Source of the DNA: Pseudomonas beijingensis
Lineage (GTDB): Bacteria; Pseudomonadota; Gammaproteobacteria; Pseudomonadales; Pseudomonadaceae
DNA length: 64,000 nt
Reading direction: 5' to 3'
NCBI RefSeq assembly: GCF_030687295.1
Contig: NZ_CP117425.1
Coordinates: 3,724,001-3,788,000, forward strand
Within the stretch, counting starts at the first letter, position 1. The number at the start of each line of letters is the position of its first letter. Positions 1 to 16,624 of this stretch are shown here, piece by piece. Both the position numbers and the translations under genes were made by a program. The notes under the pieces were generated by a model. That model was not told the origin of the DNA, searched no databases, and worked only from the letters and a program-made list of their open reading frames with translations.

Positions 1-230
1 CAAGGGCTTGATGATCGCCGTGGACCTGGTGGCGGACAAGGTCACCCCGCGAGCCGCTGGACCCGGCCAACGGCCTGGCCTCGCGTATCGCCGAGCAAGC
101 GCGGCGCGCCGGCGTATTGCTGCGCCCGATCGGTAACAAAATCGTGATGTCGCCACCGCTGACCCTCACCTGCGACGAGGCCGCCCTGATGGTCGGTGTG
201 TTGGACAGCGCGCTCGCCGACTGCCGCTAG
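1..230 (+). pseudogene. Class III (PLP-dependent) aminotransferase, C-terminal fragment with a frameshift
   Basis: This is the 3' end of a gene entering from the left edge. The frame starting at base 2 reads KGLMIAVDLVADKVTPR. Coding then continues in the next frame from base 51 as EPLDPANGLASRIAEQ and on to a TAG at 228-230. The ending, with RPIGNKIVMSPPLTLT, matches the C-terminus of class III aminotransferases (omega-amino-acid:pyruvate or GABA type). The two frames join if two bases (CG) are missing from a CGCG near base 50. This may be a sequencing indel or a genuine mutation. The catalytic lysine region lies outside the window, so the substrate cannot be assigned. Confidence 0.6.
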
Positions 231-239
231 CCCGACCAG

Positions 240-312: not shown

Positions 313-1638
313 ATGCGGAACCTATCCTGTATGGAATTTTTCGGCAGTGGTCTGGCCTGTACGCTGGCGCTTTGCGCCGCGAGTCAGGTCCAGGCCTATG
401 AGTTGTATGCCGATGACGACACGCACCTCAACGCCGACATGCTGGCGGTGTTCGGCCACTTCAACAGCCGCAAGAACTACGACGGCAGGCCCGGCGGTTC
501 AACCTGGCGCGAAGGCTTTATCAAGTATGGCGTCAGCGGCGACCAGGGCCTGGCCGGCCATGGCACCGCCTACGGGGCGTTCAGCCTGGTCAGTTCCGCC
601 ACTTGGGGCGATGGCGATTCGGCCGGTAATTCCCTTGGGTCCGAACGCACCACCAAGATCGAAGACGCTTACCTGGGCTGGCGCTCCGCCGACCTGTTCC
701 CCGTGCTGGGGCAGGACGGTGTCGATATTTCCGGCGGTCGCCAGGTGGTCAAGCTGGGCCGGGGTTTCTTGATCAACGATGACGGGCCGAACCTGGGCAA
801 AGGGCCTGCCGATGGTCGTTTGAATCGTGGCGGCGCCTATTACCTGGCCGCCCGGCACGCGTTCGATCAGACCGCGGTGTTGCGCTTGGGTGGGCAGGAC
901 GGGCTGCATGGCAGTGTGGTCTGGCTCAAGTCCGACAACCGCGCCCAGGCCGAAACCGAACTGACCGCCGGCACGCTGGACTACACCGCCAAGGCTGGGA
1001 CATTGGGCTTGACCTGGATCCATGGCCTTGATGTGAATGATCGCTGGGCCAGCGATTTGCAGAAGCAACGCGAGGGCATGGACGTCTACAGCATTCGTGG
1101 GGAAGGCGACGCGGGCATCGAGAACGCCAGCCTGGCATTTGAATACGCCTGGCAGGACAAGGACGCCGGCCCGCAGAGCGCCTGGTACGCCGAGGCCGGC
1201 TACACCTTTGCCGATCTGGCCTGGGCACCCAAGCTGACGTACCGCTACACCCGCTATTCGCAGAAGTGGGATTCGCTGTTCACCGGGCAGAGCACGGGTT
1301 ATGGCACCTGGTTCCAGGGCGAAGTCGCGGGTAACTATGCCGGACCCTTCAACAGCAACACGGGCATTCATCATGTCGGCCTGACCGCCACGCCGTTGGA
1401 GAACCTGACCCTCGGTGCGTTGTACTTCGATTACAACACCGTGCGTAAAGACAACGCCCTGAACCTGGATGCCCGTGAGCTGGACCTGTATGCCGAGTGG
1501 GCCGTGAACGAGCACTTGATCATCACTCCGCTGATCGGTCTCTACAAACCGGATCGGGATGCAACGACGGGGGGCAATCAAGTGGCGGGCAATGGCACCA
1601 ACGTGTACAGCCAGGTGACGGTGGCCGTGCCGTTCTAA
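313..1638 (+). CDS. Outer-membrane porin-like beta-barrel protein
   Basis: This 441-residue protein has a signal peptide (hydrophobic stretch about residues 8-20, cleavage near QVQA-YE). It then shows alternating aromatic and polar strands and ends in VTVAVPF with a terminal Phe, the usual signal for BAM-dependent barrel insertion. The ATG at 313 follows AAGGAG at the right distance; longer in-frame readings lack a ribosome site. It resembles the large specific porins pseudomonads use to take up organic acids (OprD-like size), but I cannot place it in a named family. It lies between an aminotransferase and the aromatic catabolic cluster, so it may be the outer-membrane entry for one of their substrates. 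Confidence 0.7.
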   Translation: MRNLSCMEFFGSGLACTLALCAASQVQAYELYADDDTHLNADMLAVFGHFNSRKNYDGRPGGSTWREGFIKYGVSGDQGLAGHGTAYGAFSLVSSATWGDGDSAGNSLGSERTTKIEDAYLGWRSADLFPVLGQDGVDISGGRQVVKLGRGFLINDDGPNLGKGPADGRLNRGGAYYLAARHAFDQTAVLRLGGQDGLHGSVVWLKSDNRAQAETELTAGTLDYTAKAGTLGLTWIHGLDVNDRWASDLQKQREGMDVYSIRGEGDAGIENASLAFEYAWQDKDAGPQSAWYAEAGYTFADLAWAPKLTYRYTRYSQKWDSLFTGQSTGYGTWFQGEVAGNYAGPFNSNTGIHHVGLTATPLENLTLGALYFDYNTVRKDNALNLDARELDLYAEWAVNEHLIITPLIGLYKPDRDATTGGNQVAGNGTNVYSQVTVAVPF

Positions 1639-1780: not shown

Positions 1781-2533
1781 CTAGCCGACGGCGGGCGGAT
1801 GTTGCATCCGCTCGGCAATCCGCCGGGTGGTGTCCATCACCATTTCAACCACGGTTTCCTGGCGCAGCAGCTTGAAGCTGTCGGTGCTGCCGACGGCCGA
1901 GAGACTGCCCACCACTTCGTCGAGCTCCGGGTTGACGATCGGCGCCGCGATACCGGTGAGGCCCAGGTTGAGTTCGTCGTGGGTCATGCAATAGCCGTCC
2001 TTGCGTATCTTTTTCGCGGCCTTGGAAAAACTTGTCCAGTCATGGCCGCTGTCGGGGTCGTTGGCCAGGTGTTCTTCGAACAGGCGTTGCAGGCGCCGGC
2101 CCTTCTGAAAGGCGATCAACACCTTGGATTGCGCACCGCGAAAAAACGGCAGCGGTTGGCCACGGCCGAATGAAAACTGGTAGGTGTCACTGGGTTCGGC
2201 AATGTAGGTGTTGATGATGCGACCGTCGTAGAAAACGCTGGCGAACACCGCCAGGCCAGTGGCGTCGGACAGCTCGTGCATCAACTCGCGGCCGGCCACG
2301 AGGATCGGGTCGTACTGCCGCATCATCCAGTCCAGCTCAATGATGCGTGGCCCCAGGCCGTAGCTGCCGGCATCCACCCGGACCAGCAGGCCGGCGTCGC
2401 ACAAATCCTTGACGTAGCGGTACACGGTCGCCCGTGACAGGCCCATGTGCTCGGCGATGGTATCGGGGTCGATCTTCAGCGATGCCGGGCCGAAAAGGTC
2501 CAGCACACTCAACATTTTGCTCAGACTGCTCAT
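1781..2533 (-). CDS. IclR-family transcriptional regulator
   Basis: This 250-residue protein has an N-terminal winged helix (about residues 5-60; helix-turn-helix around DTIAEHMGLSRATVYRYVKD) and a C-terminal IclR effector domain (about 80-250; GIAAPI motif). IclR proteins control aromatic and organic-acid catabolic genes in response to a pathway metabolite. I start at the ATG at 2533, preceded by AGGAG; the longer reading to 2650 has no ribosome site and an atypical N-terminus. The gene is transcribed away from the catabolic operon at 2807, and the shared 273-base gap contains inverted repeats, so it is the likely local regulator. The effector is unknown. Confidence 0.85.
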   Translation of the reverse strand: MSSLSKMLSVLDLFGPASLKIDPDTIAEHMGLSRATVYRYVKDLCDAGLLVRVDAGSYGLGPRIIELDWMMRQYDPILVAGRELMHELSDATGLAVFASVFYDGRIINTYIAEPSDTYQFSFGRGQPLPFFRGAQSKVLIAFQKGRRLQRLFEEHLANDPDSGHDWTSFSKAAKKIRKDGYCMTHDELNLGLTGIAAPIVNPELDEVVGSLSAVGSTDSFKLLRQETVVEMVMDTTRRIAERMQHPPAVG

Positions 2534-2651
2534 TTCGCTCCTAAAGGGGGAATGGCGCGTAGGGGGTCGTTGGGTGAGCACTATAGGTAGCCACGGCGGC
2601 GATGAAAAGCCCGCGGGCTCGCTCAGGAGCGCGTTGCCACGGTAACCCAAT

Positions 2652-2729
2652 GCTTGAGAAATACAAGCGTATTTTCAGTCGTTTACTCTTTTAAAATATG
2701 CATTAATCTCAAAATATGATTTTAATGCA
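2652..2729. promoter_or_regulatory. Candidate IclR operator region in the divergent promoter gap
   Basis: Two inverted repeats lie in the AT-rich gap before the catabolic operon. GCTTG-N7-CAAGC spans 2652-2668. TGCATTAA-N15-TTAATGCA spans 2699-2729 and contains a repeated AAAATATG. Their position between the IclR gene and its probable target operon suggests operators; this is inferred from symmetry alone. Confidence 0.4.
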
Positions 2730-2806
2730 GAAAAATAGCTTGTTTTGTCGGTTGTGCTGTGTGATAAATCTCAGCCACTGCAAACGCTCGATGAAGAGGG
2801 CTGGAA

Positions 2807-4348
2807 ATGAATGGTGCGCAACTGATAGTGAAGGCGGCGGTGGCAAGCGGTATCGAATACTGCTTCGCCAATCCCGGAACGACTGAAATTCCCCTGGTGG
2901 CAGCCATGGCCAGCGCGCCAGCCCTCAAGCCAGTGTTGTCCTTGTTCGAAGGCGTGTGCACCGGCGCGGCGGACGGCTACGGCCGGGTTGCCGGCAAGCC
3001 GGCGATGACCCTGACGCACCTCGGCCCAGGTTTTGCCAATGGCATTGCCAACCTGCACAACGCGCGTCGCGCCAACACCCCGATCGTCAACGTGATCGGC
3101 GATCACGCGTCCTGGCACGTCAATTACGATCCACCCCTGGCCAGTGACATCCAGGCGTTGGCCGGCAGCGTTTCCAAGTGGGTACGTACTTCGCGCACGG
3201 CATCGGGCGTCGGTGAAGATTTCCAGGAGGCGGTGCGTGCCGCCTGGCAAGCCAACGGCCAGATCGCCAGCCTGATCCTGCCAATGGACTTGCAAGCCAA
3301 CACCGTGCAGCACGAGAAAGCCTTCACGGCCTTGCAGGCTCCGGTCCGGCGTTTTGCCGGTGACCGCATCGAGGCGGTCGCCCAGGCATTGCGCGAGGGT
3401 CGGCGCCTGGTGTTTATCGTTGGCGACCATGGCTTGTCCGTCGCCGGCCTGGAAGCGGCGGGGCGCCTGGCGCAACTGCCGGGCGTGCGCCTGTTCGCCG
3501 AAACCTTTCCACGCATGAGTTATCGCGGCGGTGGCCTGCCAGACCTGGATCGCCTGCCGTACTTCCCCGAAGTGGCCATCGAGATCCTTGACCAATACGA
3601 CGCGGTGGTCTGCGCCGGCGTCCCGGAGCCCATCAGCTACTTCGGCTACGAAGGCATTGCCTCCCGGCTGGCAGAGCGTGACCGTCTGCTGTGCCTGGCT
3701 GAGGTGGGGGACGATGTTGCCGGGGCGCTCACTGCGCTGGCCGATGCCCTTGAAGCGCCGGCTTACGTGCCCACGCCAACTGGTATCGAACTGCCGCCCA
3801 GCGAAGCCACGTTGACGCCGCAGTCGGTGGGCCAGGTGCTGGCCGCGTCGCTGCCGGACGACTGCATCGTTTCGGTGGAAGGCGGGACGTGCGGCTATCC
3901 GTTCTTCACCGCCTCGGCCCATGCCGCACGGCATCGGGTGTTGACCAACACCGGTGGGGCCATCGGCCAGGGTATCCCGGTGGGTTTTGGTGCTGCCATG
4001 GCCGAGCCTGGCAACAAGGTGTTTTGCCTGCAGTCGGACGGCAGTGCCCAGTACACCATCCAGACCTTGTGGAGCATCGCCCGCGAGCAACTGCCGGTGG
4101 TGATCCTGATCGCGGCCAACCATCGCTACGCCATCCTGCAAAACGAACTGCGTCGCTTCGGCATGACCGAGCTGGGCCCCGAGGCCCTGAGCCTGACGGT
4201 GCTGGATCGCCCACGCATCGATTGGAAGGCCCTGGCCAAGGGCTACGGCTTGCCGGCCAGCACCGTGCACACCAATGGTGAGCTGCACCGCGCCCTGGCC
4301 AATGCCAAGGCCGACGGCGGTCCTTGCCTGATTGAAATGGCGCTGTGA
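2807..4348 (+). CDS. Thiamine-diphosphate-dependent enzyme, benzoylformate decarboxylase / acetolactate synthase-like
   Basis: This 513-residue protein has the usual three domains: PYR (about 1-170, with the activating Glu48 in LFEGVCTGAADGYGR), a central domain (about 185-310) and PP (about 340-513). The PP metal/ThDP motif reads SDGSAQYTIQTLW in place of GDGS and continues to the ANHRYAIL segment. The family decarboxylates or condenses 2-keto acids. Followed by an aldehyde dehydrogenase, it most simply acts as a 2-keto-acid decarboxylase giving an aldehyde, as MdlC does in mandelate breakdown. It starts the operon; the next ORF begins 10 bases after its stop. Annotation pipelines would probably call it acetolactate synthase large subunit, but there is no small subunit here, so I favour decarboxylase. 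Confidence 0.75.
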   Translation: MNGAQLIVKAAVASGIEYCFANPGTTEIPLVAAMASAPALKPVLSLFEGVCTGAADGYGRVAGKPAMTLTHLGPGFANGIANLHNARRANTPIVNVIGDHASWHVNYDPPLASDIQALAGSVSKWVRTSRTASGVGEDFQEAVRAAWQANGQIASLILPMDLQANTVQHEKAFTALQAPVRRFAGDRIEAVAQALREGRRLVFIVGDHGLSVAGLEAAGRLAQLPGVRLFAETFPRMSYRGGGLPDLDRLPYFPEVAIEILDQYDAVVCAGVPEPISYFGYEGIASRLAERDRLLCLAEVGDDVAGALTALADALEAPAYVPTPTGIELPPSEATLTPQSVGQVLAASLPDDCIVSVEGGTCGYPFFTASAHAARHRVLTNTGGAIGQGIPVGFGAAMAEPGNKVFCLQSDGSAQYTIQTLWSIAREQLPVVILIAANHRYAILQNELRRFGMTELGPEALSLTVLDRPRIDWKALAKGYGLPASTVHTNGELHRALANAKADGGPCLIEMAL

Positions 4349-4358
4349 AGGAGCGGAT

Positions 4359-5850
4359 ATGAATCAGATTCAATTGTTACCTGCGGTCGAGAAGTTCCTG
4401 TCGCAACCCGGGCGCCTGTTTATCGGTGGCACCTGGCAGGACGCCGCCGATGGTCACCGGTTTGCCGTGGAAAACCCGGCCAGCGAATCCATCCTGGCTG
4501 AAGTCGCCGAAGGCGGCGAACGCGACGTGGATGCCGCCGTCGCTGCTGCCCGTGCGGCCTTCACGGGGACCTGGGCACAACAGTCGCCGGCCCAGCGCGG
4601 GTTGTTGCTGTTTCGCCTGGCGGAACTGCTCGACCAGCATCGCGAAGAACTGGCGCAACTGATCACTCTGGAAAACGGCAAGCCGATCGCCGCGGCCCGC
4701 GGGGAAGCGGCCAGCGCGGCCAACATCATTCGTTACTTCGCCGGTTGGCCGACCAAGATCGAAGGCAGCACGCATCCGGTGTCGCCCTCCAGCGGCGCGC
4801 CGATGCTCAACTACACCTTGCGCGAGCCGGTGGGCGTCTGCGCCTTGATCGTGCCGTGGAACTTCCCGTTGACCATGTGCGTGTGGAAGCTCGGCCCGGT
4901 GCTGGCGACCGGTTGTGTCGCGGTGCTCAAGCCCGCCGAGCAGACGCCCCTGGTTGCCATTCGCCTGGTGCAACTGATCGAGGCCGCCGGTTTCCCGGCC
5001 GGGGTGGTCAACCTGCTGACTGGCCTGGGTGCGCAGACTGGCGCGCCGCTGGCCCAGCACTCGGACGTGGACAAGATCGCCTTCACCGGCTCGACCCAGG
5101 TGGGCCGCCTGATCGCCCAAGCGGCCACCGGCAACATGAAGAAGGTGTCGCTGGAACTGGGTGGCAAGTCCCCCAACATCATCCTGCCGGACGCCGATAT
5201 CGTCCGGGCCGCCAAAGGCGCCGCCGATGGCATTTTCTACAACCAGGGCCAGGTTTGCACCGCCGGATCACGTTTGTACGTGCACGCCACGCGTCCTCGA
5301 TCAGGTGCTTGAAGAACTCCAGCGCCACGCGACCGCCCATGTGTTGGGGCCAGGCCTGGATCCGGCCAGCAGCATGGGCCCGCTGGTCTCGGCCCGGCAA
5401 CTGGGCACGGTGCGTGGCTACCTGCAACGGGGTCAGGAGGAAGGCGCCGAACTGATCTGCGGCGGTGACCGGCCGGCCCACCTGGAGCGCGGCCACTTCA
5501 TCCGCCCCAGCGTGTTTCTCGACCGCGCCGAGCGCGCCTGTGTCGCCCGGGAAGAAATCTTCGGCCCGGTGCTGACCGTCATGAGCTGGACCGAAATCGA
5601 TGAACTGGTGCTGCGCGCCAATGACTCGCCTTACGGCCTGGCGGCCGGGCTCTGGACCCGCGACTTGCGTTCCGCCCATCGCGTGGCGGCGCAGTTGAAG
5701 GCCGGCTCGGTGTGGATCAACTGCTGGAACGTCGTCGACCCGGCCTCGCCCTTTGGCGGCTACAAGCAATCCGGCTGGGGTCGGGAAATGAGTAAGAACG
5801 TGATCGATGCCTACACCGAAACCAAAAGTGTCTTCGTCGATCTGGCCTGA
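4359..5850 (+). pseudogene. Aldehyde dehydrogenase, interrupted by one frameshift
   Basis: The first frame (4359 to about 5290) encodes residues 1 to about 310, with the NAD-binding IVPWNFPL motif, the general base in LELGGKSPN and the nucleophile in GQVCTAG. The C-terminal half resumes in another frame as RVLDQVLEELQRHA, carries EEIFGPV and SPFGGYKQSGWGRE, and ends at 5850. Removing one base near 5290 restores a normal-length ALDH of about 496 residues. Position in the operon suggests it oxidises the aldehyde made by the upstream ThDP enzyme. Either the gene is recently broken or the base is a sequencing error. Codon usage is intact on both sides. Confidence 0.85.
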
Positions 5851-5876
5851 GCCGAATAATCACAAGAGGAACTGCT

Positions 5877-6671
5877 ATGGATCTGGAATTGCAAGGCCGC
5901 GTGGCGATCGTCACCGGCGGTGGTATGGGCATCGGCAAGGAAGTCGCGCGCTTTTTGTCCCAGGAAGGTTGCAAGGTGGTGATCTGCGCGCGGCGCATGG
6001 AGTTTCTCCAGCAAGCCGCCGAGGAAATCACCGCAGAGACCGGCAACGAAGTGCTGCCGTTGTTCTGTGACACCAACCAGATGTCGGCGGTGTCCGACAT
6101 GGTCGAGGCGGCCCACAAGCACTTTGGCCGCATCGACATCCTGGTCAACGGCGCCGCGGCGCCGTCCGGCGTGGTGCGCAACGACATCGAGCATGCCGGC
6201 GACGACGAATTGCTCTCGGACCTCAACACCAAGGTGATCGGCTATTTCCGCTGCGCCAAGGCGGTGACCCCGCACATGAAGGCCGGTGGCTTCGGTCGCA
6301 TCATCAACATCGGTGGCCTGACCGGGCGTGGCAGCAAAGTCCTTTCGGGCATGCGCAACCTGGCCATCGCCCACATGACCAAGACCCTCTCCGACCAACT
6401 CGGCCCCTCCGGCATCACGGTCAACCTGATCCACCCCGGCGTGGTCGACACCCCGCACATCCAGGAGCTGTACGAGCGCGAAGGGGTCAAGCAGGGCAAG
6501 ACGCCCGAGCAGGTGGAGCAGGCCTACATCGATGCGACGCCGATCCGACGCACCCTGGCGCCCATCGAAATGGGCTGGCTGATCGGTTTCCTCGCATCGC
6601 CCAAGGCGGGCGCCGTGACCGGGGAATCCATTGGCATCGATGGCGGCTTGACCCGCGGCATCTTCATTTGA
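5877..6671 (+). CDS. SDR-family oxidoreductase lacking the YxxxK catalytic pair
   Basis: This 264-residue Rossmann protein has the cofactor motif TGGGMGIG (about residues 13-20), the ILVNGAA strand and the C-terminal PGVVDTPHI loop typical of classical short-chain dehydrogenases. The segment that should hold Ser and YxxxK reads IINIGGLTG then SGMRN, so the catalytic Ser, Tyr and Lys all appear replaced. The rest of the fold is conserved, with TKTLSDQLGPSGITVNLI following normally, so this is not decay. It may bind NAD(P) with altered chemistry or a non-redox role. A ribosome site (AAGAGGAA) precedes the ATG. It sits third in the catabolic operon. Confidence 0.8.
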   Translation: MDLELQGRVAIVTGGGMGIGKEVARFLSQEGCKVVICARRMEFLQQAAEEITAETGNEVLPLFCDTNQMSAVSDMVEAAHKHFGRIDILVNGAAAPSGVVRNDIEHAGDDELLSDLNTKVIGYFRCAKAVTPHMKAGGFGRIINIGGLTGRGSKVLSGMRNLAIAHMTKTLSDQLGPSGITVNLIHPGVVDTPHIQELYEREGVKQGKTPEQVEQAYIDATPIRRTLAPIEMGWLIGFLASPKAGAVTGESIGIDGGLTRGIFI

Positions 6672-6683
6672 GGAGCAGCAGTG

Positions 6684-7724
6684 ATGAGTAACGGAACCCT
6701 TTTGGTCGCCACCGTAGGGCAAGCGGTGATCCGCAGCGCCGACGATGGCCGTACCTGGCATCGCCTGGGCCTGGGCCAGGATCTGGAGTTCGATGCGATC
6801 ACCCGATCCCTGAGTTTCCACCCGGGTACGCCTGAGGTGATCTATGCCGGCACCGACGTCGGCCTGTGCATCAGCCATGACACTGGCGGCCATTGGCAGC
6901 GGGTGGATTCGCCGTTCAACGGGCAAACCGTGTGGAAGGTGGCCGTGGATCCGCAGGATGCGCAGCGCATTTTCGTCGGCACCGGTGCGCCTTCGCGCGC
7001 GGTACTGTGGCGCACCCTTGACGGTGGCCAGAGCTGGGATCGCGCCCCCGTGGAGATCCCGGAGTTCTGCGACGGCGTCAGTCGTCCACGCTTGCTGGCG
7101 TTCGCCTACGACCCGACGGACCGCAACCAGCTCTGGTTCGGCCTGGAGGAGGGCGGGCTGTTCCACAGTCGTGACGGTGGCGATAGCTGGACCCGCGTTG
7201 ATGACCGCCTGTTGTGGGACTACAACTCGGACGTGCATAACATCGTGGTCCTGCCCAACCATGGACAGAAGGTCATCGTCGTGGTGTGCGTCAACGCCGT
7301 GTACCGCAGCCTCGACGAGGGGCAGACCTGGACCGGCATCGTTGCCCGGGAAACCTTCGGCCTGTACTACGTGCGCGCCATGAATGCCGCGTTGGGCAGT
7401 GAAAATACGCTCTACCTGAGCATCTCCGACGGCACCCCCGGCACCACCAGCAAGGTGCTGGTCTCCCGGGATGCCGCCCTCAGTTGGGAAGTGCTGCCGC
7501 TGCCGCAACAACCCAATTCCTGTGTCTGGGCGATTGCCTTGAACCCTGCCGACCCTCGCCAGATCGTCGCCGGTACCAAGTACGGGCATCTGTTCACGTC
7601 CGAGAACGGTGGTGACGGCTGGCAGAAGCAGTGGCGTGAATTCAGTGAAATCGCTGATGTGCTCTGGACGCCCGCCGTGGCGCAAATCAAGTCCGGGCAT
7701 CAATCCATCATCAAGAAGAACTGA
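6684..7724 (+). CDS. Cytoplasmic seven-Asp-box (BNR/sortilin-type) beta-propeller protein
   Basis: This 346-residue protein has seven evenly spaced Asp-box motifs (SADDGRTW, SHDTGGHW, TLDGGQSW, SRDGGDSW, SLDEGQTW, SRDAALSW, SENGGDGW), as expected for a seven-bladed beta-propeller. It has no signal peptide, unlike most secreted sialidase-like or YCF48/HCF136-like relatives. AGGAG sits eight bases before the ATG at 6684. Its place among soluble catabolic enzymes suggests a cytoplasmic role, perhaps as a lactonase, isomerase or scaffold, but no catalytic residue can be named. The function is unknown. Confidence 0.75.
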   Translation: MSNGTLLVATVGQAVIRSADDGRTWHRLGLGQDLEFDAITRSLSFHPGTPEVIYAGTDVGLCISHDTGGHWQRVDSPFNGQTVWKVAVDPQDAQRIFVGTGAPSRAVLWRTLDGGQSWDRAPVEIPEFCDGVSRPRLLAFAYDPTDRNQLWFGLEEGGLFHSRDGGDSWTRVDDRLLWDYNSDVHNIVVLPNHGQKVIVVVCVNAVYRSLDEGQTWTGIVARETFGLYYVRAMNAALGSENTLYLSISDGTPGTTSKVLVSRDAALSWEVLPLPQQPNSCVWAIALNPADPRQIVAGTKYGHLFTSENGGDGWQKQWREFSEIADVLWTPAVAQIKSGHQSIIKKN

Positions 7725-7735
7725 GGGATCGCGCG

Positions 7736-8185
7736 ATGAAAGTCGAAGTCGTTCGTACGCACCTGTCGTTGTTCGTGAGCGACCCTGAAGTGTCGGCACG
7801 TTGGTACGCCGATGTGCTGGGCATGCATGAAAGCGCCCGGGGTGAAAGCTGGATCATGATGGCGTTTGGTGCCAAGCATCACGACATCGCGTTGCTCCGC
7901 GCGGAACCCGGAGCCCACCAGGGCGGCCTGGGGTTGCAGCACTACGGGCTGGAGATCGCGGGCGACATGACCACCCTGCGCAAGCTCTACGGCATGTTGC
8001 TGAAAAAGGGCGTTGAGGTGGTAAAGATCACCGACCACGAGATCGGCAACGGCGTGTATTTCAACGACCCCGATGGCAATCGCATGGAATTTTTTCTCGA
8101 GTCCGAACACGACGACGCGCGCGGCAAGGCCCGCTTCAAGGCCGCTGGGGCTCCCAGCCGGCATTTCGATCTCGACCCACTTTGA
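7736..8185 (+). CDS. VOC-superfamily protein, type I extradiol dioxygenase-like
   Basis: This 149-residue protein has two beta-alpha-beta-beta-beta vicinal-oxygen-chelate modules. The likely metal triad is visible: His9 (RTHLSLFVSD), His69 (LQHYGLEI) and Glu118 (NRMEFFLE), with 60- and 49-residue spacings close to those of the His-His-Glu triad in catechol 2,3-dioxygenases. The YFNDPDGNRMEFF motif is typical of the family. With a flavin hydroxylase, C-C hydrolase-like protein and hydratase downstream, ring cleavage of a catechol is the simplest role. The single short module could instead belong to a glyoxalase- or isomerase-type enzyme. It starts 11 bases after the propeller gene. Confidence 0.75.
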   Translation: MKVEVVRTHLSLFVSDPEVSARWYADVLGMHESARGESWIMMAFGAKHHDIALLRAEPGAHQGGLGLQHYGLEIAGDMTTLRKLYGMLLKKGVEVVKITDHEIGNGVYFNDPDGNRMEFFLESEHDDARGKARFKAAGAPSRHFDLDPL

Positions 8186-8199
8186 ATGAGACTTTTCTT

Positions 8200-8802
8200 A
8201 TGAAAACCGCGAATTTCGCCAGTTATCACATCCGCAAATGGTACAGCTTCGTCGAGGAAACCCTGGCCAACGAAACCGGCCAGTTAGCCGATGGCGAGCC
8301 GCTGTTCAAATACGCCATTGGCGCGGTGATCGCCAACCCTTACGCCGGCCGTTTCAGCGAAAGCCTGGCCGAGCTGATAGAGCCGTCACCCTTGTTGGGC
8401 CAGGAGTTTGGTCGGCGCATCCAGGCGTTGGCCGGCGAGCGTGAGATTGTCAGCTACGGCAAGGCGTGCCTGGTGGGCAGCCAGGGCGAGTACGAGCATG
8501 GCAATGCGCTGCTGACCAATCCGGCGGCGGATCCGATCCGTGTCGCGTTGGGCGGGGGCAAGTCCTGGGTGCCTTCCACCGGCAAGCGTGGCGGGCCTGG
8601 CGTGACCATCGATGTGCCGCTGGCCCACAAGGACGCGTTGTATGTCCGTTCGCACTACGACAGCATTTCCCTGTCGTTCGGCGATGGCCCCTCGGCCGAC
8701 GAGTTGGTCATTATCTGGGCCTTCGCCACGCGTGGGCGTTTGCATGCCCGCCTGGGTGGTCTCCAGGCTGCCGACGTCAAGGGCAATGACGGCCTGTATT
8801 GA
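8200..8802 (+). CDS. 'Amino acid synthesis' family protein (PF06684-like)
   Basis: This 200-residue soluble protein begins MKTANFASYHIRKWYSFVEE and carries the conserved segments GEPLFKYAIGAVIANPYAGR, YGKACLVGSQGEYEHGNALL and a HYDSISLSFGDGP strand. These fit the poorly understood family named amino acid synthesis. The family name rests on weak evidence and no reaction is established. The gene begins 14 bases after the VOC stop, in the middle of the catabolic operon, so it more likely acts on a pathway intermediate than in amino-acid biosynthesis. The ATG at 8200 is preferred over an upstream TTG. Confidence 0.7.
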   Translation: MKTANFASYHIRKWYSFVEETLANETGQLADGEPLFKYAIGAVIANPYAGRFSESLAELIEPSPLLGQEFGRRIQALAGEREIVSYGKACLVGSQGEYEHGNALLTNPAADPIRVALGGGKSWVPSTGKRGGPGVTIDVPLAHKDALYVRSHYDSISLSFGDGPSADELVIIWAFATRGRLHARLGGLQAADVKGNDGLY

Positions 8803-8829
8803 GGTGCGCTGATCGTGGGAAGCCAACGA

Positions 8830-9693
8830 ATGTCTGCAAACAGCCAGTTCTTCACCAATCGTTCGGGGATGCGCCTGCACTATTTGTCGTGGGGCAACCC
8901 GTCGGGCATTGCGGTGGTGCTGCTGCACGGGCTGCGATCCTATGCCCAGACCTGGGATGGTTTGGCCAATGCGCTGGGCGAGCGGTACTGCTGCTATGCC
9001 CTTGACCAGCGCGGTCGTGGATACAGTGACTGGGCGGATGCCTCCAGTTACCGGACCGAGGTCTACGTCAATGACCTTGAAGATTTGGTGGCGCATTTGG
9101 GATTGCAGCGTTTCGTCCTGGTGGGGCACTCCCTTGGTGGCACCAATGCACTGGAGTATGCCCGGCTCAATCCGGGACGCCTGCAAGCGTTGGTGATCGA
9201 GGACATCGGCCCTGGCTCTTCGGTCAGCGGTGATGGCGCCGAGCGCATTCGACGCGAGATGAGCCAGACGCCGCTGTTGTTTCCTGACTGGGAGAGCGCC
9301 GCCCAGTTCTGGCGGCAAGCGCGACCTGGCTTGTCTCTGGAGGGGCTGGCTTCCAGATTGATGCACTCCATGAAGGAAACCCTGGCTGGCATCGAATGGC
9401 GTCACGACCAGCAAGGTATTGCCCAGGCGCGCCTGAGTATTACCCCGACAGACTTGTGGCCGGCGGTCCGGGCGCTGGATTGCCCGACGCTGTTCATTCG
9501 TGGCGCCCGTTCCGATTTCCTGCCGTTGGCGACCCTTGAGTCGATCAAGCAGGCCAATGCGTGGGTGCGGACAGAGGAAATCGCCGACGCCAGCCATTAT
9601 GTCCATGATGACCAGAGCGAAATGTTCAACCTCGTCGTCATGGACTATTTATATGACCAATGCCTACAACCACAACAACAAAGCGGTGAATAG
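8830..9693 (+). CDS. Alpha/beta hydrolase, possible meta-cleavage C-C hydrolase
   Basis: This protein of about 287 residues has the alpha/beta-hydrolase fold: oxyanion-hole VVLLHGLRSYAQTWD, nucleophile elbow VGHSLGGTNA, an acid in the PTLFIRGARSDFLP strand and catalytic His in ASHYVHDDQ near the C-terminus. In a meta-cleavage pathway such a hydrolase splits the ring-opened dienoate (MhpC/BphD role), and the neighbouring hydroxylase, dioxygenase-like protein and hydratase support this. The start could be the ATG at 8830 (GGAAG upstream) or a GTG at 8815 (GAGG upstream). It ends two bases before the monooxygenase. Confidence 0.75.
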   Translation: MSANSQFFTNRSGMRLHYLSWGNPSGIAVVLLHGLRSYAQTWDGLANALGERYCCYALDQRGRGYSDWADASSYRTEVYVNDLEDLVAHLGLQRFVLVGHSLGGTNALEYARLNPGRLQALVIEDIGPGSSVSGDGAERIRREMSQTPLLFPDWESAAQFWRQARPGLSLEGLASRLMHSMKETLAGIEWRHDQQGIAQARLSITPTDLWPAVRALDCPTLFIRGARSDFLPLATLESIKQANAWVRTEEIADASHYVHDDQSEMFNLVVMDYLYDQCLQPQQQSGE

Positions 9694-9695
9694 CG

Positions 9696-11303
9696 ATGAA
9701 GCAGGAGAAAACCCAGGTTGTCATCGTGGGCGGTGGCCCGAACGGGATCACGGCCGCTCATTACATGGGGCTGTACGGTATCGACTGCATCGTCCTTGAA
9801 TTGGCCGACGGCGTCCTGCCGTATCCCCGTGCGGTGGGCATGGATGACGAGGCGCTGCGAGTGTTGCAGGGCATCGGCATCGCTGAACTGGCCGTGCGCG
9901 ACATGATCTGCAACGTGCCCCTGCGTTACTACAATGCGCGAGGCGTCTGTTTTGCCGAGGTCAAGCCGAGCACGGCGAACTATGGTTGGCCGATGCGCAA
10001 CATCTTCATGCAACAGTTGCTTGAAACGACATTGCGCGAGCAGATGGGCAAGCACGCCAGTGTCGCGTTGCGCCAGGGCCATGAAATGCTCGATCTGGAG
10101 CAGGATGCCGAGGGCGTGACCTTGCAGGTGCGCGATGCCCAGGGCGAGCTGTATCAGTTGCAGGCGCAGTACGTGATCGGCGCCGATGGCGGACGTTCCA
10201 GCGTGCGCAAGAAACTCGGTATTGAACTGCTGGGGCTGACCCATCCGCGCAAGTGGGTGGTGATCGATACGGCCAACGACACCCTCGACGCACCGTATAC
10301 CGCCTTGCATGCCGACCCTCAGCGACCTTTCGTCTGCATCTACCTGCCGTATCAACAACGGCGTTGGGAGTTCATGCTCCTGGAGGGCGAAGACGAGACC
10401 CGGATGTGCGAAGAAGCAACGATCCGGGACTTGATCCGTGGGCATATCGGCGATGCGGTCGATCAACTGGAAATCATCCGGATCCGCGCCTACACCCATA
10501 ACTCCCGAGTCGCGGCGCGCTTTGTCCAGGGCCGGGTGGCACTGGTGGGGGATGCGGCGCATATTTCCCCGCCTTGGGCCGGGCAGGGGCTCAACTCAGG
10601 CCTGCGTGATGTCGCCAACGTCAGCTGGAAGCTCGCCGCGATTCTCCAGGGCAGGGCGTCGCCGGCGATTCTGGCCAGTTACGACCAGGAGCGTCGCGGG
10701 CATGCGACCGATCTCATCGCGCTGGCCGACAACATGGGCGCCGTCCTGGGGCTGACCAACCCGTTGATGGCCGGTGTGCGGGACTGGCTGTTCCAGGCCG
10801 TCAACAGCGTCGACAACCTGCGTTCGCACTTGCTGGAATTCAAGTTCAAGCCCAAGGCGACCATCACCAAAGGCCTGGTGTACCACGAGCGCGCCGAGCT
10901 GCATGAGGATGATCTGGTCGGGCAGTTGTTCATCCAACCGTCCATCGAAGATGCCCAGGGCCAGCGTCGACGCCTTGACGAGGTGCTGGGGCATTCCTAT
11001 GCGGTGCTGGGGTATCGGGTCAACCCGAGCGAACAGCTCAGTGAAGAAACCGCCGCCTGGTGGGCGCGCTGGGAGACGCGGTTCATCCAGATCAATCGCT
11101 CGCGCAGTGGCGTGGGGCGCAACCAACCCTTGTCTGTCAGCGGGGCCATTTGCGTTGAGGATGTCGATAACCGCCTGGGCGAATGGTTTGCCAAGGTGCG
11201 TGACTGCGTCGTGGTGGTGCGACCGGATCGGTTCGTTGCCGCGATCACCACACCCGAGCGGCTCGAAGGCGTATTGCGCAAACTGGCGGAGCAACTTTCA
11301 TGA
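9696..11303 (+). CDS. FAD-dependent aromatic monooxygenase, MhpA-like
   Basis: This 535-residue flavoprotein hydroxylase shows the FAD-binding GGGPNG (about residues 12-17), the GADGGRSSVRKKL motif near residue 163 and ALVGDAAHISPPWAGQGLN near residue 286, the latter two binding FAD and NAD(P)H. Length and pattern match 3-(3-hydroxyphenyl)propionate hydroxylase and related PheA/TfdB-type single-component hydroxylases. It would introduce a second ring hydroxyl to give a catechol for ring cleavage. It starts two bases after the hydrolase gene and overlaps the hydratase by four bases, indicating translational coupling. The natural substrate is unknown. Confidence 0.85.
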   Translation: MKQEKTQVVIVGGGPNGITAAHYMGLYGIDCIVLELADGVLPYPRAVGMDDEALRVLQGIGIAELAVRDMICNVPLRYYNARGVCFAEVKPSTANYGWPMRNIFMQQLLETTLREQMGKHASVALRQGHEMLDLEQDAEGVTLQVRDAQGELYQLQAQYVIGADGGRSSVRKKLGIELLGLTHPRKWVVIDTANDTLDAPYTALHADPQRPFVCIYLPYQQRRWEFMLLEGEDETRMCEEATIRDLIRGHIGDAVDQLEIIRIRAYTHNSRVAARFVQGRVALVGDAAHISPPWAGQGLNSGLRDVANVSWKLAAILQGRASPAILASYDQERRGHATDLIALADNMGAVLGLTNPLMAGVRDWLFQAVNSVDNLRSHLLEFKFKPKATITKGLVYHERAELHEDDLVGQLFIQPSIEDAQGQRRRLDEVLGHSYAVLGYRVNPSEQLSEETAAWWARWETRFIQINRSRSGVGRNQPLSVSGAICVEDVDNRLGEWFAKVRDCVVVVRPDRFVAAITTPERLEGVLRKLAEQLS

Positions 11304-12082
11304 GGCGCGAAGATGATCTGCTGGTCCGGCTTCACGATGCCGCGCAGGCCGTACACGGTTTGCCTTCGTTGGAGCCGGAGGCCGTCGATCTGCCGATGGG
11401 TTATACCTTGCAGCGTGAGGCGCTGCGCCGGCGCCAGGCCGGTGGTGAGCGGTTGACCGGATGGAAAGTGGCCTTCGCCGGCCGCGCCGCCCAGGACCGT
11501 TTCGGTATTGATGAGCCGGTATTGGGCGCGTTGACCGATGCCATGGCCGTGGAGCCCGGCAGTGCGGTGCCGCTTGCACGGCTGATCCAGCCGAAGTTGG
11601 AAATCGAGCTGGCGTTTGTCCTGGGGCGTACGCTGGTGCCCGGTTTCTACAGCGACGAGGACATCCTCGCCGCCATCTCCGAGGTCGCGCCGGCGTTCGA
11701 GATCGCCGATTGCCGTTGGCAGGGCTGGCGTTTCGGCGTCGGCGCGTTTCTTGCCGACAATGCCGCGGCGGGGCTGTATTGCCTGGGGTCGCGTGTCAGG
11801 TTCCATCCCGAGCAATTGACCCACGTGCACTATCGCCTGGAATGCGACAGGGTGCCCTGTGGCGAGGGCAATGCCCAAGCACGCGAGGACACGCCCCAGG
11901 CCAACCTGTGCTGGCTGGTCCGGCGCTTGTTGGCTGATGGGCAGTGCGTTGAAGCGGGCCAGGTGGTGCTGTCCGGCTCTTTGTTGGCGCCTCTGGAGAT
12001 CAAGGCCGCCGAGTATCGGTTGTACATGCTTGGCATGGAACTGGCTTTGGTTTTCCAGGCGGGTGAAGACGGTCGGCAGTAA
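11300..12082 (+). CDS. 2-hydroxypenta-2,4-dienoate hydratase / 4-oxalocrotonate decarboxylase family (MhpD-like)
   Basis: This 260-residue protein of the FAH-fold hydratase/decarboxylase family carries LTGWKVAFAG near residue 52 and the metal-ligand strand KLEIELAFVLG near residue 98, with AFEIADCRW following. MhpD-type enzymes hydrate 2-hydroxypenta-2,4-dienoates released by the C-C hydrolase. It is the last gene of the operon and begins with an ATGA overlap with the monooxygenase stop. No aldolase (MhpE) or acetaldehyde dehydrogenase (MhpF) follows, so the lower pathway must be encoded elsewhere or differ. Confidence 0.8.
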   Translation: MRREDDLLVRLHDAAQAVHGLPSLEPEAVDLPMGYTLQREALRRRQAGGERLTGWKVAFAGRAAQDRFGIDEPVLGALTDAMAVEPGSAVPLARLIQPKLEIELAFVLGRTLVPGFYSDEDILAAISEVAPAFEIADCRWQGWRFGVGAFLADNAAAGLYCLGSRVRFHPEQLTHVHYRLECDRVPCGEGNAQAREDTPQANLCWLVRRLLADGQCVEAGQVVLSGSLLAPLEIKAAEYRLYMLGMELALVFQAGEDGRQ

Positions 12083-12112
12083 GAACTGTTTACTCAAGTG
12101 AAATGATGCACT

Positions 12113-12221
12113 CGTGGCGAGGGAGCTTGCTCCCGCTTGACCGGGCTGGCGCTCCAGTGCGAAGCGCTCACCAAAATGGGTCTGCTGCGCAGCCCAGCGG
12201 GCGCAAGCTCCATCGCCACGG
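12113..12221. repeat. REP-like pair (GGCGAGGGAGCTTGCTCCC family)
   Basis: GTGGCGAGGGAGCTTGCTCCCG at the left and a degenerate GCGGGCGCAAGCTCCATCGCCAC at the right face each other across about 60 bases that themselves contain short inverted repeats. It lies at the end of the catabolic operon. Confidence 0.85.
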
Positions 12222-12286
12222 GGCTATCGACTTGCTTGCATGACCGTATCAGGCAATAAGCGCAGGGCCACCGAGGAACAATGATC

Positions 12287-13228
12287 ATGTTCGCCGAAGT
12301 CCGTACCTTCAATGATCCTCAGCAACACGCCGGTTCGATCCTGGGCTGGCAACAAGTCTATGACCAGCTCGGGCGTGGATGCCTGTCCAGCGAGCTGCGC
12401 CAGGTGTGCGCCGAGCGCTTCCAGATCTTCCAGGAGGTGCTCGACAAACGGGTGGTGCAGCGCGGTTGCGCGCCAAAAGGGCGCTTGTGCATTGCCATGT
12501 CGTTGGGCGGTGCGCCGGTGGTCCAGGGGCATCAGGTGGGCGCCCACAGCGTCGTGCTGTTGCGCGATGGCGAAGATTTCGTCCTGCACGCCCCGGAAGG
12601 TACGCACTTCTTCGCGGCCAATGTCGACACGGCGCGGTTCGCCAGGCTGGCGGCCTACGAGCTGTCGAGCGAACAGCTCAAGCGCTTGAAAAGCGCGTCC
12701 CAAGTCAGTGTGGATGAGGTGGTGCTGCGGCGGGTGCAACAACGGATCCATCCCCTGTTTCGTCACCTTTTGGAACAGGCCGACGCGGTCAATCCCGCCT
12801 CGGAAAAAATCCTCGAAGACGTTCTGCTCAACGCCTTTCTCGACCTGTTCAGCCACGCCTCGGACGAGGTGCGTGGCCGGCGCGGCAACTTCGCCGTCAG
12901 TGCCTACCTGGTCAAGCGTTGCCAGGAACTGGTGGTGGCCAGCGCCGATGTGCCCTTGAGCATCCTCGACTTGTGCGAGCAATTGCGGGTCAGTCGCAGG
13001 ACCCTGCAGAACAGTTTCCAGGCGGTCACCGGCATGCGTCCGGTGGAGTACTTGCGCAACCTGCGGCTCAATGCCGTGCGCCGCCGGCTGATCACGACCC
13101 GTGCGGCCGCGCTGAACGTCAGTGAGATCGCCATGGCCATGGGGTTTTTCCACCTGAGTCATTTTGCGGTCCATTACCGGGCATTGTTTGGCGAGTCACC
13201 CTCGGATACGCCCCGGGCACCGGCATGA
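12287..13228 (+). CDS. AraC-family transcriptional regulator
   Basis: This protein of about 313 residues has a variable N-terminal sensing domain (about 1-200) and a C-terminal AraC double helix-turn-helix (about 215-310; LSILDLCEQLRVSRRTLQNS and then VSEIAMAMGFFHLSHFAVHY). The second helix resembles EutR/FeaR-type regulators. The start at ATG 12287 leaves about nine bases after AGGA; ATG 12281 would be too close. It is collinear with and downstream of the nine-gene catabolic operon, so the operon may be controlled by both this protein and the IclR protein. No operator is evident to me. Confidence 0.8.
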   Translation: MFAEVRTFNDPQQHAGSILGWQQVYDQLGRGCLSSELRQVCAERFQIFQEVLDKRVVQRGCAPKGRLCIAMSLGGAPVVQGHQVGAHSVVLLRDGEDFVLHAPEGTHFFAANVDTARFARLAAYELSSEQLKRLKSASQVSVDEVVLRRVQQRIHPLFRHLLEQADAVNPASEKILEDVLLNAFLDLFSHASDEVRGRRGNFAVSAYLVKRCQELVVASADVPLSILDLCEQLRVSRRTLQNSFQAVTGMRPVEYLRNLRLNAVRRRLITTRAAALNVSEIAMAMGFFHLSHFAVHYRALFGESPSDTPRAPA

Positions 13229-13407: not shown

Positions 13408-13414
13408 TTTTTGA

Positions 13415-13436
13415 ATCCATGGATAATTGGATACAA
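13415..13436. promoter_or_regulatory. Candidate GntR operator
   Basis: The perfect palindrome ATCCATGGAT (13415-13424) is followed by TTGGATACAA (13427-13436), close to the TTGTATACAA-like sites of FCD-type GntR proteins. Both cover the predicted start of transcription of the sigma-54 promoter and lie just before the GntR gene, which suggests autoregulation. Confidence 0.4.
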
Positions 13437-13455
13437 AAATGCAGAAGGTGCTGCC

Positions 13456-14124
13456 ATGCAATTTGCTCCGACGTACGCTGAACGTCCGCCCATGACCGCC
13501 GAGGAGGAGGCCTACAACTTCCTGCTCGATGCCATTTGTGGCGGTCGGTTACGCAAGGGCGACCGACTGATTGCCGAGGATATTGCCAACGAGATCGGCA
13601 TGAGCCGGATGCCGGTGCGCGAGGCCTTTCGCCGTCTGGATGCCCAGGGCCTGGTGACCTTGCGGCCCAATCGCGGGGCGGTGGTCAGCGGCCTGGACAT
13701 CGAGGAGCTGCACGAAGTCTTCGAAATGCGCAGCGCCCTGGAAGGCCTGGCGGTCCGTGTCGCGGCAGCAAGAATTGGTGAGCGCCAGCTGGCTGCCTTG
13801 GAGCGCTTGCTGGACGAGATGGACGATTACCGTGAGGAGAGCGCCGAGTGGGTCAGCCGCCATCGCGCCTTCCATGAATACCTGTGCAGCCTCAGCGGTC
13901 GCCCGCGCTTGCTCAAGCAGATCAGCGCGCTTTACTCCCTGATCGAAGCGCCCATGCGCCTATGGCTGCAGCACGTTGAAAAGCCCCTGAGTGCGCGTCA
14001 GGAGCACATGCTGATCCTCGATGCCCTGCGTGCGGGCGATGCCGAGAAGGCCGAGGCGGTGGTGCGTGCGCACATCGAAGGCACCGTTCCTGAGTTGATC
14101 GAGTTCCTGCAATCGAAAAAATAA
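13456..14124 (+). CDS. GntR-family (FCD subfamily) transcriptional regulator
   Basis: This 222-residue protein has an N-terminal winged helix (about 13-78; KGDRLIAEDIANEIGMSRMP then VREAFRRLDAQGLV) and an all-helical FCD ligand domain (about 85-218), including EVFEMRSALEGLAVRVAA and the metal-site histidine region HRAFHEYL. FCD regulators sense organic or amino acids. The ATG at 13456 follows GAAGGTG. It heads a gene set for polar amino-acid import and gamma-glutamyl hydrolysis and probably controls it. Confidence 0.85.
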   Translation: MQFAPTYAERPPMTAEEEAYNFLLDAICGGRLRKGDRLIAEDIANEIGMSRMPVREAFRRLDAQGLVTLRPNRGAVVSGLDIEELHEVFEMRSALEGLAVRVAAARIGERQLAALERLLDEMDDYREESAEWVSRHRAFHEYLCSLSGRPRLLKQISALYSLIEAPMRLWLQHVEKPLSARQEHMLILDALRAGDAEKAEAVVRAHIEGTVPELIEFLQSKK

Positions 14125-14204
14125 CCAGAGCAGGAGTCACTAAATCCTGCCGGTGTTTTGACTTTGAGTACTGCCCGTTAATTACTGAACTGGAGTGTCT
14201 GGTC

Positions 14205-15011
14205 ATGCATAAGCCTCGCCTGTTGGTTGCCGCTTTATCCTTGGGTTTCTGTGCGCAGTGGGCGGTTGCCGCGCCCGTTGTTCCGGAGCGTTTGCTCAAG
14301 GTCGACAAACTCGTCTACTGCTCAGGCATGGATTCGCCGCCGCTGGTGGCCTTTGATGAAGCACAGAAACCCAAGGGATTGACCGTGGACCTGGGGCTGG
14401 AAATCGCCAAGCGCCTGGGCGACAAGAAGGTGGAGTGGCGGGTCATTCCCTTTTCCGGGTTGCTCCCCGCGTTGCTGGCCCGACAGTGCGACATGATCGT
14501 CGACCAACTGTTTGACAAACCCGAGCGCCGCGAGGTGATCGACATCGTCAACTACATGTATTCCAGCCAGGCGGTGGTGGTGCCCAAGGGCAATCCGAAG
14601 GGACTCAAGACGCTGCAGGCGCTCTCCGGGCACAAAGTCGCGGTGCTCAACGGTTCCACTATCAAGACCCTGCTCGACGCCGAGAACGCAACCCTGGCCA
14701 AGGCCGGCAAGCCGCCGATGAAGCTGGTGGTCTACAACACCGACACCGATGCGTTCCAGGCCCTGCGCATCAGCCAGGTCGACGCCTACGGCACCACCGT
14801 GGAAACCGCCGGTTACTACGCCACCATGGCCCCCGACCTGTTCGAGGAAGGGGTGCCGGCCTTCAGCCGGATTCTCACCGGCCTGGGCATTCGCAAGGAC
14901 GATCCGCAACTGACCGCCGCCGTGCAGCAGGTGATCGACGATATGCGCAGCGATGGCAGCTACAGCCAGCTGTTGGGCAAATGGCATGTCGCCAGTGACA
15001 CACTTGATTGA
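14205..15011 (+). CDS. Amino-acid ABC transporter periplasmic substrate-binding protein
   Basis: This 268-residue protein has a signal peptide (hydrophobic core about residues 6-22, cleavage near AVAAPV) and a family 3 solute-binding domain: PPLVAFDEAQKPKGLTVDL, then CDMIVDQLFDKPERREVIDI, as in GlnH/HisJ-type binders of polar amino acids. It would deliver ligand to the permease and ATPase encoded next. The downstream gamma-glutamyltransferase suggests gamma-glutamyl amino acids, glutathione-like compounds or glutamate-related ligands; this is inferred from context only. Confidence 0.85.
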   Translation: MHKPRLLVAALSLGFCAQWAVAAPVVPERLLKVDKLVYCSGMDSPPLVAFDEAQKPKGLTVDLGLEIAKRLGDKKVEWRVIPFSGLLPALLARQCDMIVDQLFDKPERREVIDIVNYMYSSQAVVVPKGNPKGLKTLQALSGHKVAVLNGSTIKTLLDAENATLAKAGKPPMKLVVYNTDTDAFQALRISQVDAYGTTVETAGYYATMAPDLFEEGVPAFSRILTGLGIRKDDPQLTAAVQQVIDDMRSDGSYSQLLGKWHVASDTLD

Positions 15012-15023
15012 GGTGAACCATCG

Positions 15024-15800: not shown

Positions 15801-15802
15801 CC

Positions 15803-16582: not shown

Positions 16583-16624
16583 CGGTTCCCGGCCACCGAA
16601 TTCCTGTATTGAAGAGTTTTTGCC

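Follow-up and report, generated by a model that had tools for sequence, protein, structure and literature searches.

The stretch of DNA analysed here (the window; 64,000 nt, C1:3724001-3788000 of the 6.45-Mb single-contig genome of Pseudomonas beijingensis, G000) carries nine plus-strand genes, at window positions 2807-12082, that form a real and conserved cluster. It looks like an aromatic ring-cleavage operon, with hydroxylation and extradiol cleavage among its steps. The genes encode, in order, a thiamine diphosphate (ThDP)-dependent 2-keto-acid decarboxylase-like enzyme of 513 aa (2807..4348), an aldehyde dehydrogenase (ALDH; 4359..5850), a short-chain dehydrogenase/reductase (SDR; 5877..6671), an Asp-box seven-bladed beta-propeller that is probably an enzyme (6684..7724), a single-domain VOC protein with metal ligands of the extradiol-dioxygenase type (7736..8185), a protein of family PF06684 (AA_synth/DUF1185; 8200..8802), an alpha/beta hydrolase (8815..9693 from a GTG start, or from the ATG at 8830), an MhpA-like flavin adenine dinucleotide (FAD)-dependent aromatic hydroxylase (9696..11303), and a lineage-specific MhpD-like protein of the 2-oxo-acid hydratase/decarboxylase family (11300..12082). 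Judged by the cluster proteins, the nearest named relatives are P. thivervalensis and P. kilonensis, to which the core proteins and the IclR and AraC regulators on either side are 94-99% identical, and the MhpD-like protein 92 and 85%.

A preliminary description, made from the sequence of the window, had named the same nine families, and these are confirmed by Pfam (PF02776 and PF02775 for the ThDP enzyme; two pieces of PF00171 in two frames for the ALDH; PF13561 for the SDR; PF00903 for the VOC protein; PF06684 at 211.8 against a cut-off of 27 bits, with PDB entries 2qtp and 3byq; PF00561 for the hydrolase; PF01494 for the FAD hydroxylase). It was also right about the tight packing, with gaps of 2-27 nt and one overlap. 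The gaps measure 10 nt (ThDP/ALDH), 26 nt (ALDH/SDR), 11 nt (propeller/VOC) and 2 nt (hydrolase/FAD hydroxylase); that between SDR and propeller is 9 nt with a GTG start and 12 nt with an ATG start, that between PF06684 and hydrolase is 12 nt (GTG) or 27 nt (ATG), and that between VOC and PF06684 is 14 nt (ATG). Overlaps, described as a shared feature, hold for the FAD hydroxylase and MhpD-like genes (4 nt) and for no other pair, unless the TTG at 8182 is the start of the PF06684 gene. The start had been placed at 2534, which lies in the iclR-ThDP intergenic region, and the set does not close there, since a porin gene, the end of an aminotransferase gene, a second ALDH gene and a permease gene lie before it. 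Overall, the observation is partly confirmed and the first interpretation partly supported. The gene set, which had been called undescribed, was not found described in searches of the open-licence PMC literature.

Synteny was followed in loci found by a propeller-profile scan of named genomes; the best 80 of 158 confirmed relatives correspond to 79 distinct loci, all chosen by their propeller, in which the gene calls are rough script output, at times on the wrong strand. The conserved synteny that had been proposed as a check is found: in 70 of the 79 loci the genes run ThDP-(ALDH)-SDR-propeller-VOC-PF06684-(hydrolase)-FAD. The MhpD-like gene is present in 54 of these 70 and is outside the cluster core. 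Twelve of the 16 loci that lack it, all betaproteobacterial, also lack an ALDH gene in that place, and the other four (three Nonomuraea and one metagenome-assembled genome of Methylocystaceae) lack the MhpD-like gene only. The hydrolase is out of place in 16 of the 70 ordered loci, six of which have a 68-72% homologue approximately 5 kb past araC. Of the nine partial loci, three have propeller-VOC-FAD (Ideonella and two Curvibacter), and each of the other six is a case of its own, some of them lying where a contig ends; in Curvibacter the three genes are accompanied by genes for an AraC protein, a transaminase and an ALDH. Marinobacterium ramblicola has a second propeller-VOC-FAD copy immediately after its full cluster (L101:17630-20929), which supports the view of these three genes as a sub-module. 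A carboxymuconolactone-decarboxylase-family gene occurs in 12 of the 79 loci, mostly marine. Cluster variants are also carried by plasmids of Burkholderia pyrrocinia, Variovorax and Novosphingobium (L052-L054, outside the 79-locus count); the annotation in B. pyrrocinia reads acetolactate synthase, SDR, sialidase, VOC, amino acid synthesis, hydrolase, MhpA-like hydroxylase, NIPSNAP, semialdehyde dehydrogenase and IclR.

Close orthologues of four separate genes of the cluster are found in the same 12 of 298 Pseudomonadaceae genomes, with identities of at least 79% (PF06684), 83% (propeller), 82% (ThDP) and 78% (FAD hydroxylase), and this co-occurrence means that the clustering exceeds chance. 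All 11 other genomes have the ordered cluster, with the hydrolase out of place in five (L034-L038). Two weaker tiers count against so simple a picture of conservation: PF06684 homologues of 34-47% identity in 80 further genomes and ThDP homologues of 40-44% in 11 further genomes. The E-value limits were set strictly (1e-60 for the propeller, 1e-100 for ThDP and 1e-140 for FAD), and any weaker propeller or FAD tiers fall outside them. Eight loci of other Pseudomonadaceae (L043-L050) carry a second PF06684 tier of 41-46% identity, with a GntR-like gene nearby in 8/8, a 29-31% FAD hydroxylase in 7/8 and an ALDH in 5/8; these apparently represent another conserved, unnamed catabolic cluster.

The ALDH gene, which had been read as a single open frame, is split near 5290 in this assembly (open reading frames 4332-5312 and 5161-5850), and its parts are in one frame in 11/11 orthologous loci. 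Compared with four close relatives (L055-L058), frame-changing indels are seen in 4/4 comparisons near window position 45, in the aminotransferase gene, and near 5290; the remaining length changes that are not multiples of three fall between genes or at gene ends. Such indels are either assembly errors or recent decay. Decay of the pathway in this strain, with an operon that is functional in relatives and a broken aminotransferase and ALDH here, is possible on our estimate, if rather less than probable, and would be compatible with the explanation that we prefer. It would account for two indels that both fall within genes, and a ThDP frame is likewise interrupted in P. straminea (L084:6129-7679), with an internal stop in genome G261 and the gene, possibly broken, read as two open reading frames. 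However, both indels are single-base length changes of a type found in assemblies, the other cluster genes are open with their catalytic residues kept, and the control, which compared the remainder of the window, was too small.

Family models and catalytic residues point to a ring-cleaving core; residue counts here and below refer to copies within the 79 loci that passed identity and coverage limits. The FAD hydroxylase passes the MhpA-family model NF004831 (769.8 against 546 bits), with four other MhpA-named models under their cut-offs, and keeps its glycine motif in 73/74 copies and Asp286 in 74/74. His9, His69 and Glu118 of the VOC protein, which make up a 2-His-1-Glu metal site, are present in 77/77 copies. 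Its PDB matches are weak (homoprotocatechuate and catechol 2,3-dioxygenases, FosA and ChaP), and it scores below the extradiol models catechol_2_3 (40.0 against 320.2) and HpaD (31.8 against 321.4), which describe two-domain enzymes of double length; from its metal ligands we predict a ring-cleaving dioxygenase of the type I extradiol kind. The triad of the alpha/beta hydrolase (Ser106, Asp234 and His261) is intact in 63/63 copies. For the MhpD-like protein, the curated cut-offs are not reached (TIGR03220, 125.8 against 408.8; PRK11342, 92.4 against 350). The earlier assignment of hydroxylation, meta-cleavage, hydrolysis and hydration to the last four genes is supported by the FAD enzyme, the VOC site and the hydrolase triad, and less so for hydration, as 16 ordered loci do without the MhpD-like gene. 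The conservation of catalytic residues in the VOC protein, the hydrolase, the FAD hydroxylase and the ThDP enzyme suggests that selection maintains these four as enzymes.

The propeller and the PF06684 protein are without an established job in such ring-cleavage pathways. The seven-bladed fold covers the full propeller chain, and 45 aligned sequences share twelve invariant polar residues (Asp38, Arg42, Arg106, Arg137, Glu156, Asp184, His186, Tyr230, Arg232, Lys300, Arg319 and Glu323, numbered from the GTG at 6681), several of which a confident structure model places on or next to the first strand of a blade. The protein is probably an enzyme. Its fold neighbours include 3-carboxy-cis,cis-muconate lactonizing enzyme (CMLE) and 6-phosphogluconolactonases at 10-12% identity, which is a likeness at the level of the fold; in contrast to these propellers, the one described here has Asp-box repeats, as do 3b7f and GH74. 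The family is large, with 727 related proteins among the matches listed, inside or outside such clusters.

The first two genes had been likened to the decarboxylase and dehydrogenase pair of mandelate breakdown. The ThDP enzyme shares with benzoylformate decarboxylase (BFD) the equivalents of the catalytic Glu47 and His70 (Glu48 and His71, in 71/71 copies), and in both cases an ALDH gene adjoins. The likeness does not extend to the catalytic His281 of BFD, in place of which Phe279 is found in 71/71 copies (a register that rests on neighbouring residues, the printed PDB chain having Tyr there), nor to Ser26, which is replaced by Thr. The protein passes the PRK07586 model (NF005760; 671 against 363 bits) and falls below the NCBIfam BFD model (NF005485; 181.3 against 493 bits). 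For the SDR, the 25 NCBIfam families listed (of 232) all score below their cut-offs.

The genes before the cluster bear on how the substrate enters the cell. On the plus strand, and mostly upstream of the window, lie genes for an amino-acid permease, an ALDH and a class-III aminotransferase (L134:13916-18136), followed by one for an outer-membrane porin-like protein (313..1638; PF13372 marginal at 25.4 against 25.2 bits) that is kept as a neighbour in many Pseudomonas loci. The aminotransferase gene (L134:16865-18136) reaches into the window with its 3' end (1..231). Its product passes NF005683 (PRK07481; 663 against 575 bits), with a match that ends at residue 402 of 423, and is 73% identical over 389 aa to a homologue in the Marinobacterium locus L101, whose best PDB match is the omega transaminase 5lh9 (E 2e-233, 778 bits), an amine transaminase whose source is described as an uncultivated Pseudomonas (PMC6813460, PMC9418295). 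A comparable unit is hinDAC of histamine catabolism, in which an APC permease, an aminotransferase and an ALDH take an imported amine to the acid (PMC8231116). The same three families stand side by side here, and in many loci, though not in every one, they lie close to the cluster; the likeness is one of family and gene content; hinDAC is described with its own lower pathway, hinFLHG, and a LysR regulator, HinK. Because permease, ALDH, amine transaminase and porin precede the cluster, the compound taken up is more likely an arylalkylamine than a free arylglyoxylate. The earlier proposal of an arylglyoxylate or similar acid is supported insofar as it called for a catabolic cluster; the upstream genes point to an imported amine instead. 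Across the 79 loci, an amino-acid permease (>60% identity) is present in 41 and a transaminase (>55%) in 26; L084, L091 and L130 have the permease beside the cluster and neither transaminase nor second ALDH, and a sulfatase is found in 3/3 tested loci with another extra gene (L093, L116 and L126). Since these genes differ among loci, the aromatic core seems to be shared and the entry route variable. A minus-strand chemoreceptor gene with a PDC/Cache sensor domain (L134:11486-13537) adjoins the permease gene, and homologues of 71-76% stand beside the permease in L063, L067, L072, L081 and L082; chemotaxis toward the pathway substrate is possible.

From the gene content, conservation and catalytic residues, which were observed directly, we infer amine entry, shortening of the side chain, opening of the ring, the later order of steps and the kind of substrate. 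The cluster is best explained as an inducible operon that degrades a phenolic aromatic; in Pseudomonas the compound would most likely be imported as a primary arylalkylamine. For this reading with its order of steps our confidence is evenly balanced. The APC permease and porin would import the amine, and the transaminase and upstream ALDH would convert -CH2NH2 to -COOH in the manner of hinDAC on histamine (PMC8231116). The SDR would oxidize a 2-hydroxy acid to the corresponding 2-keto acid, from which the ThDP enzyme would form an aldehyde by decarboxylation, and the cluster ALDH would yield the shortened aromatic acid. The MhpA-like enzyme would then add a hydroxyl next to the existing phenol, and the VOC protein would open the resulting catechol by extradiol cleavage. 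On the fission product the propeller may act as an enzyme, perhaps as a lactonase or in a lactonizing step like the CMLE propeller, and the hydrolase and PF06684 protein would complete its cleavage. In many gammaproteobacteria the MhpD-like hydratase would follow, with the aldolase supplied here by another locus. A beta-hydroxylated phenolic phenethylamine of the octopamine type would employ every gene, but as a substrate it is a guess, and an unlikely one.

That other locus could be the single place in the genome where 4-hydroxy-2-oxovalerate aldolase exceeds its cut-off (C1:3493854, approximately 230 kb away), from which the MhpD branch could be completed. It belongs to a separate ring-cleavage operon (L143:5285-12782; C1 3490285-3497782) with genes for a BphC-type dioxygenase, a hydrolase, a hydratase of the FAA-hydrolase family, acetaldehyde dehydrogenase, the aldolase, an FAD hydroxylase and an amidohydrolase. 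An HpaI aldolase is encoded at C1:3993212.

A different order of events would have the ThDP enzyme, ALDH and SDR act after ring fission, in place of an aldolase branch, to take a 4-hydroxy-2-oxo acid (arising by hydratase or hydrolysis) to a 3-hydroxyaldehyde, a 3-hydroxy acid and a 3-keto acid. The starting aromatic acid would then need no mandelate-like side chain. The invariant Phe at the BFD His281 position speaks for this order, since an enzyme with that residue need not act on benzoylformate. No aldolase is found among the scanned cluster proteins, ThDP and SDR accompany the ring-cleavage genes in the 70 ordered loci, and the broad matches of the SDR include 3-hydroxybutyrate dehydrogenase models, all under cut-off. 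Against the order count the 16 loci that keep ThDP and SDR where the MhpD-like gene is absent, the three in which propeller-VOC-FAD occur without ThDP or SDR, and the aldolase and acetaldehyde dehydrogenase available in another operon, and we consider it doubtful. Because propeller-VOC-FAD occur by themselves in loci with neither ThDP nor SDR, we place these two more probably before ring cleavage than after it, as in the amine pathway preferred above.

Among known ring-cleavage systems, the mhp pathway for 3-hydroxyphenylpropionate shares with the cluster an MhpA-family FAD hydroxylase, an alpha/beta hydrolase and an MhpD-family protein. The present cluster differs in its single-domain VOC protein, in having no aldolase, in an MhpD-like protein that is non-core and under all cut-offs, and in its ThDP, SDR, propeller and PF06684 genes, which mhp is not known to have. 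Ten of the 79 loci belong to genera that we take to be marine or saline, which speaks against a pathway of the flavonoid or coumarin kind (fde, ifc or hcd), where the FAD hydroxylase and a glyoxalase-like dioxygenase would open a bicyclic phenol, the rest would handle a pyranone or lactone, and the permease and transaminase would be unrelated neighbours. There are parallels to such pathways, since IfcA and FdeE (isoflavone and naringenin degradation) are FAD hydroxylases and IfcB and FdeC glyoxalase-like ring-cleaving enzymes (PMC11069340, PMC11303751), HcdD of 7-hydroxycoumarin degradation in P. mandelii 7HK4 is a PF06684-type protein induced together with the hydroxylase HcdA and dioxygenase HcdB (PMC7913881), and plant-associated Pseudomonas are among the hosts, going by record titles. 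We nonetheless regard this alternative as improbable: the likeness to FdeE, IfcA and HcdA is one of description; hcd is described with a zinc alcohol-dehydrogenase-type reductase, a cupin and an FMN reductase in place of the ThDP enzyme and propeller (PMC7913881); and ifc has the cupins IfcD1/D2, with no cupin match among the scanned cluster proteins, while its main text does not use the words sialidase, BNR, acetolactate, amino acid synthesis or aminotransferase (PMC11069340).

Regulation by IclR and AraC proteins had been proposed, and genes for both flank the cluster. The iclR gene (1781..2533, minus strand; PF01614 and PF09339) is divergent from the ThDP gene here and in many loci; its start at 2533 was chosen by eye, the mechanical open reading frame extending to 2650. 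An alignment of 18 Pseudomonas sequences, hand-picked from loci with a ThDP match above 75% and inspected at its tail, reveals a conserved promoter- or operator-like footprint between the two genes (2708..2773, plus strand). It consists of a CTCA-N5-TGAG-like palindrome with TCTC...GAG-like arms (2708-2720; TGAT/GAT in this window), a TTG element at 2740-2742 and, about 20 nt on, TGTGATAAATCTCA at 2760-2773. The region is consistent with a single promoter and an IclR operator, and IclR would govern the divergent promoter; since a simple promoter scan of the region did no better than shuffles, it is the conservation that argues for this assignment. The AraC gene (12281..13228, plus strand; PF12833) is linked to the cluster in 11/11 orthologous loci (L032-L042). 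It follows the MhpD-like gene after 198 nt that contain a 34-nt imperfect inverted repeat (12113-12146/12187-12220), so that AraC possibly has its own transcript. A further inverted repeat, read by eye, lies between porin and iclR (1660-1760); we take both repeats to be REP-like (repetitive extragenic palindromic).

Beyond araC, genes for a GntR regulator, an amino-acid ABC transporter and a gamma-glutamyltransferase (13411-18235) also stand behind the cluster in the closest relatives. An ABC transporter, an aminotransferase and a gamma-glutamyltransferase are likewise encoded near the B. pyrrocinia cluster (L053), and both a connection and a coincidence are possible.

We tentatively suggest, as something that may well prove otherwise, that the Asp-box propeller, acting in concert with the VOC dioxygenase and a PF06684 protein, performs a lactone step after ring fission, on the product of that cleavage, in a new type of ring-cleavage pathway for phenolic amines that would extend from Pseudomonas and marine bacteria to Actinobacteria. 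If so, this would be the first enzymatic role in aromatic catabolism for the propeller family and for PF06684, as far as searches of open-licence papers go. Two families now named only “sialidase/YCF48-like/glycosyl hydrolase” and “amino acid synthesis” would gain a testable role and a class of substrate, and database labels that mislead would be corrected, among them acetolactate synthase, the name given to the ThDP gene in Burkholderia pyrrocinia. It would also explain the use of phenolic amines by various soil, plant-associated and marine bacteria.

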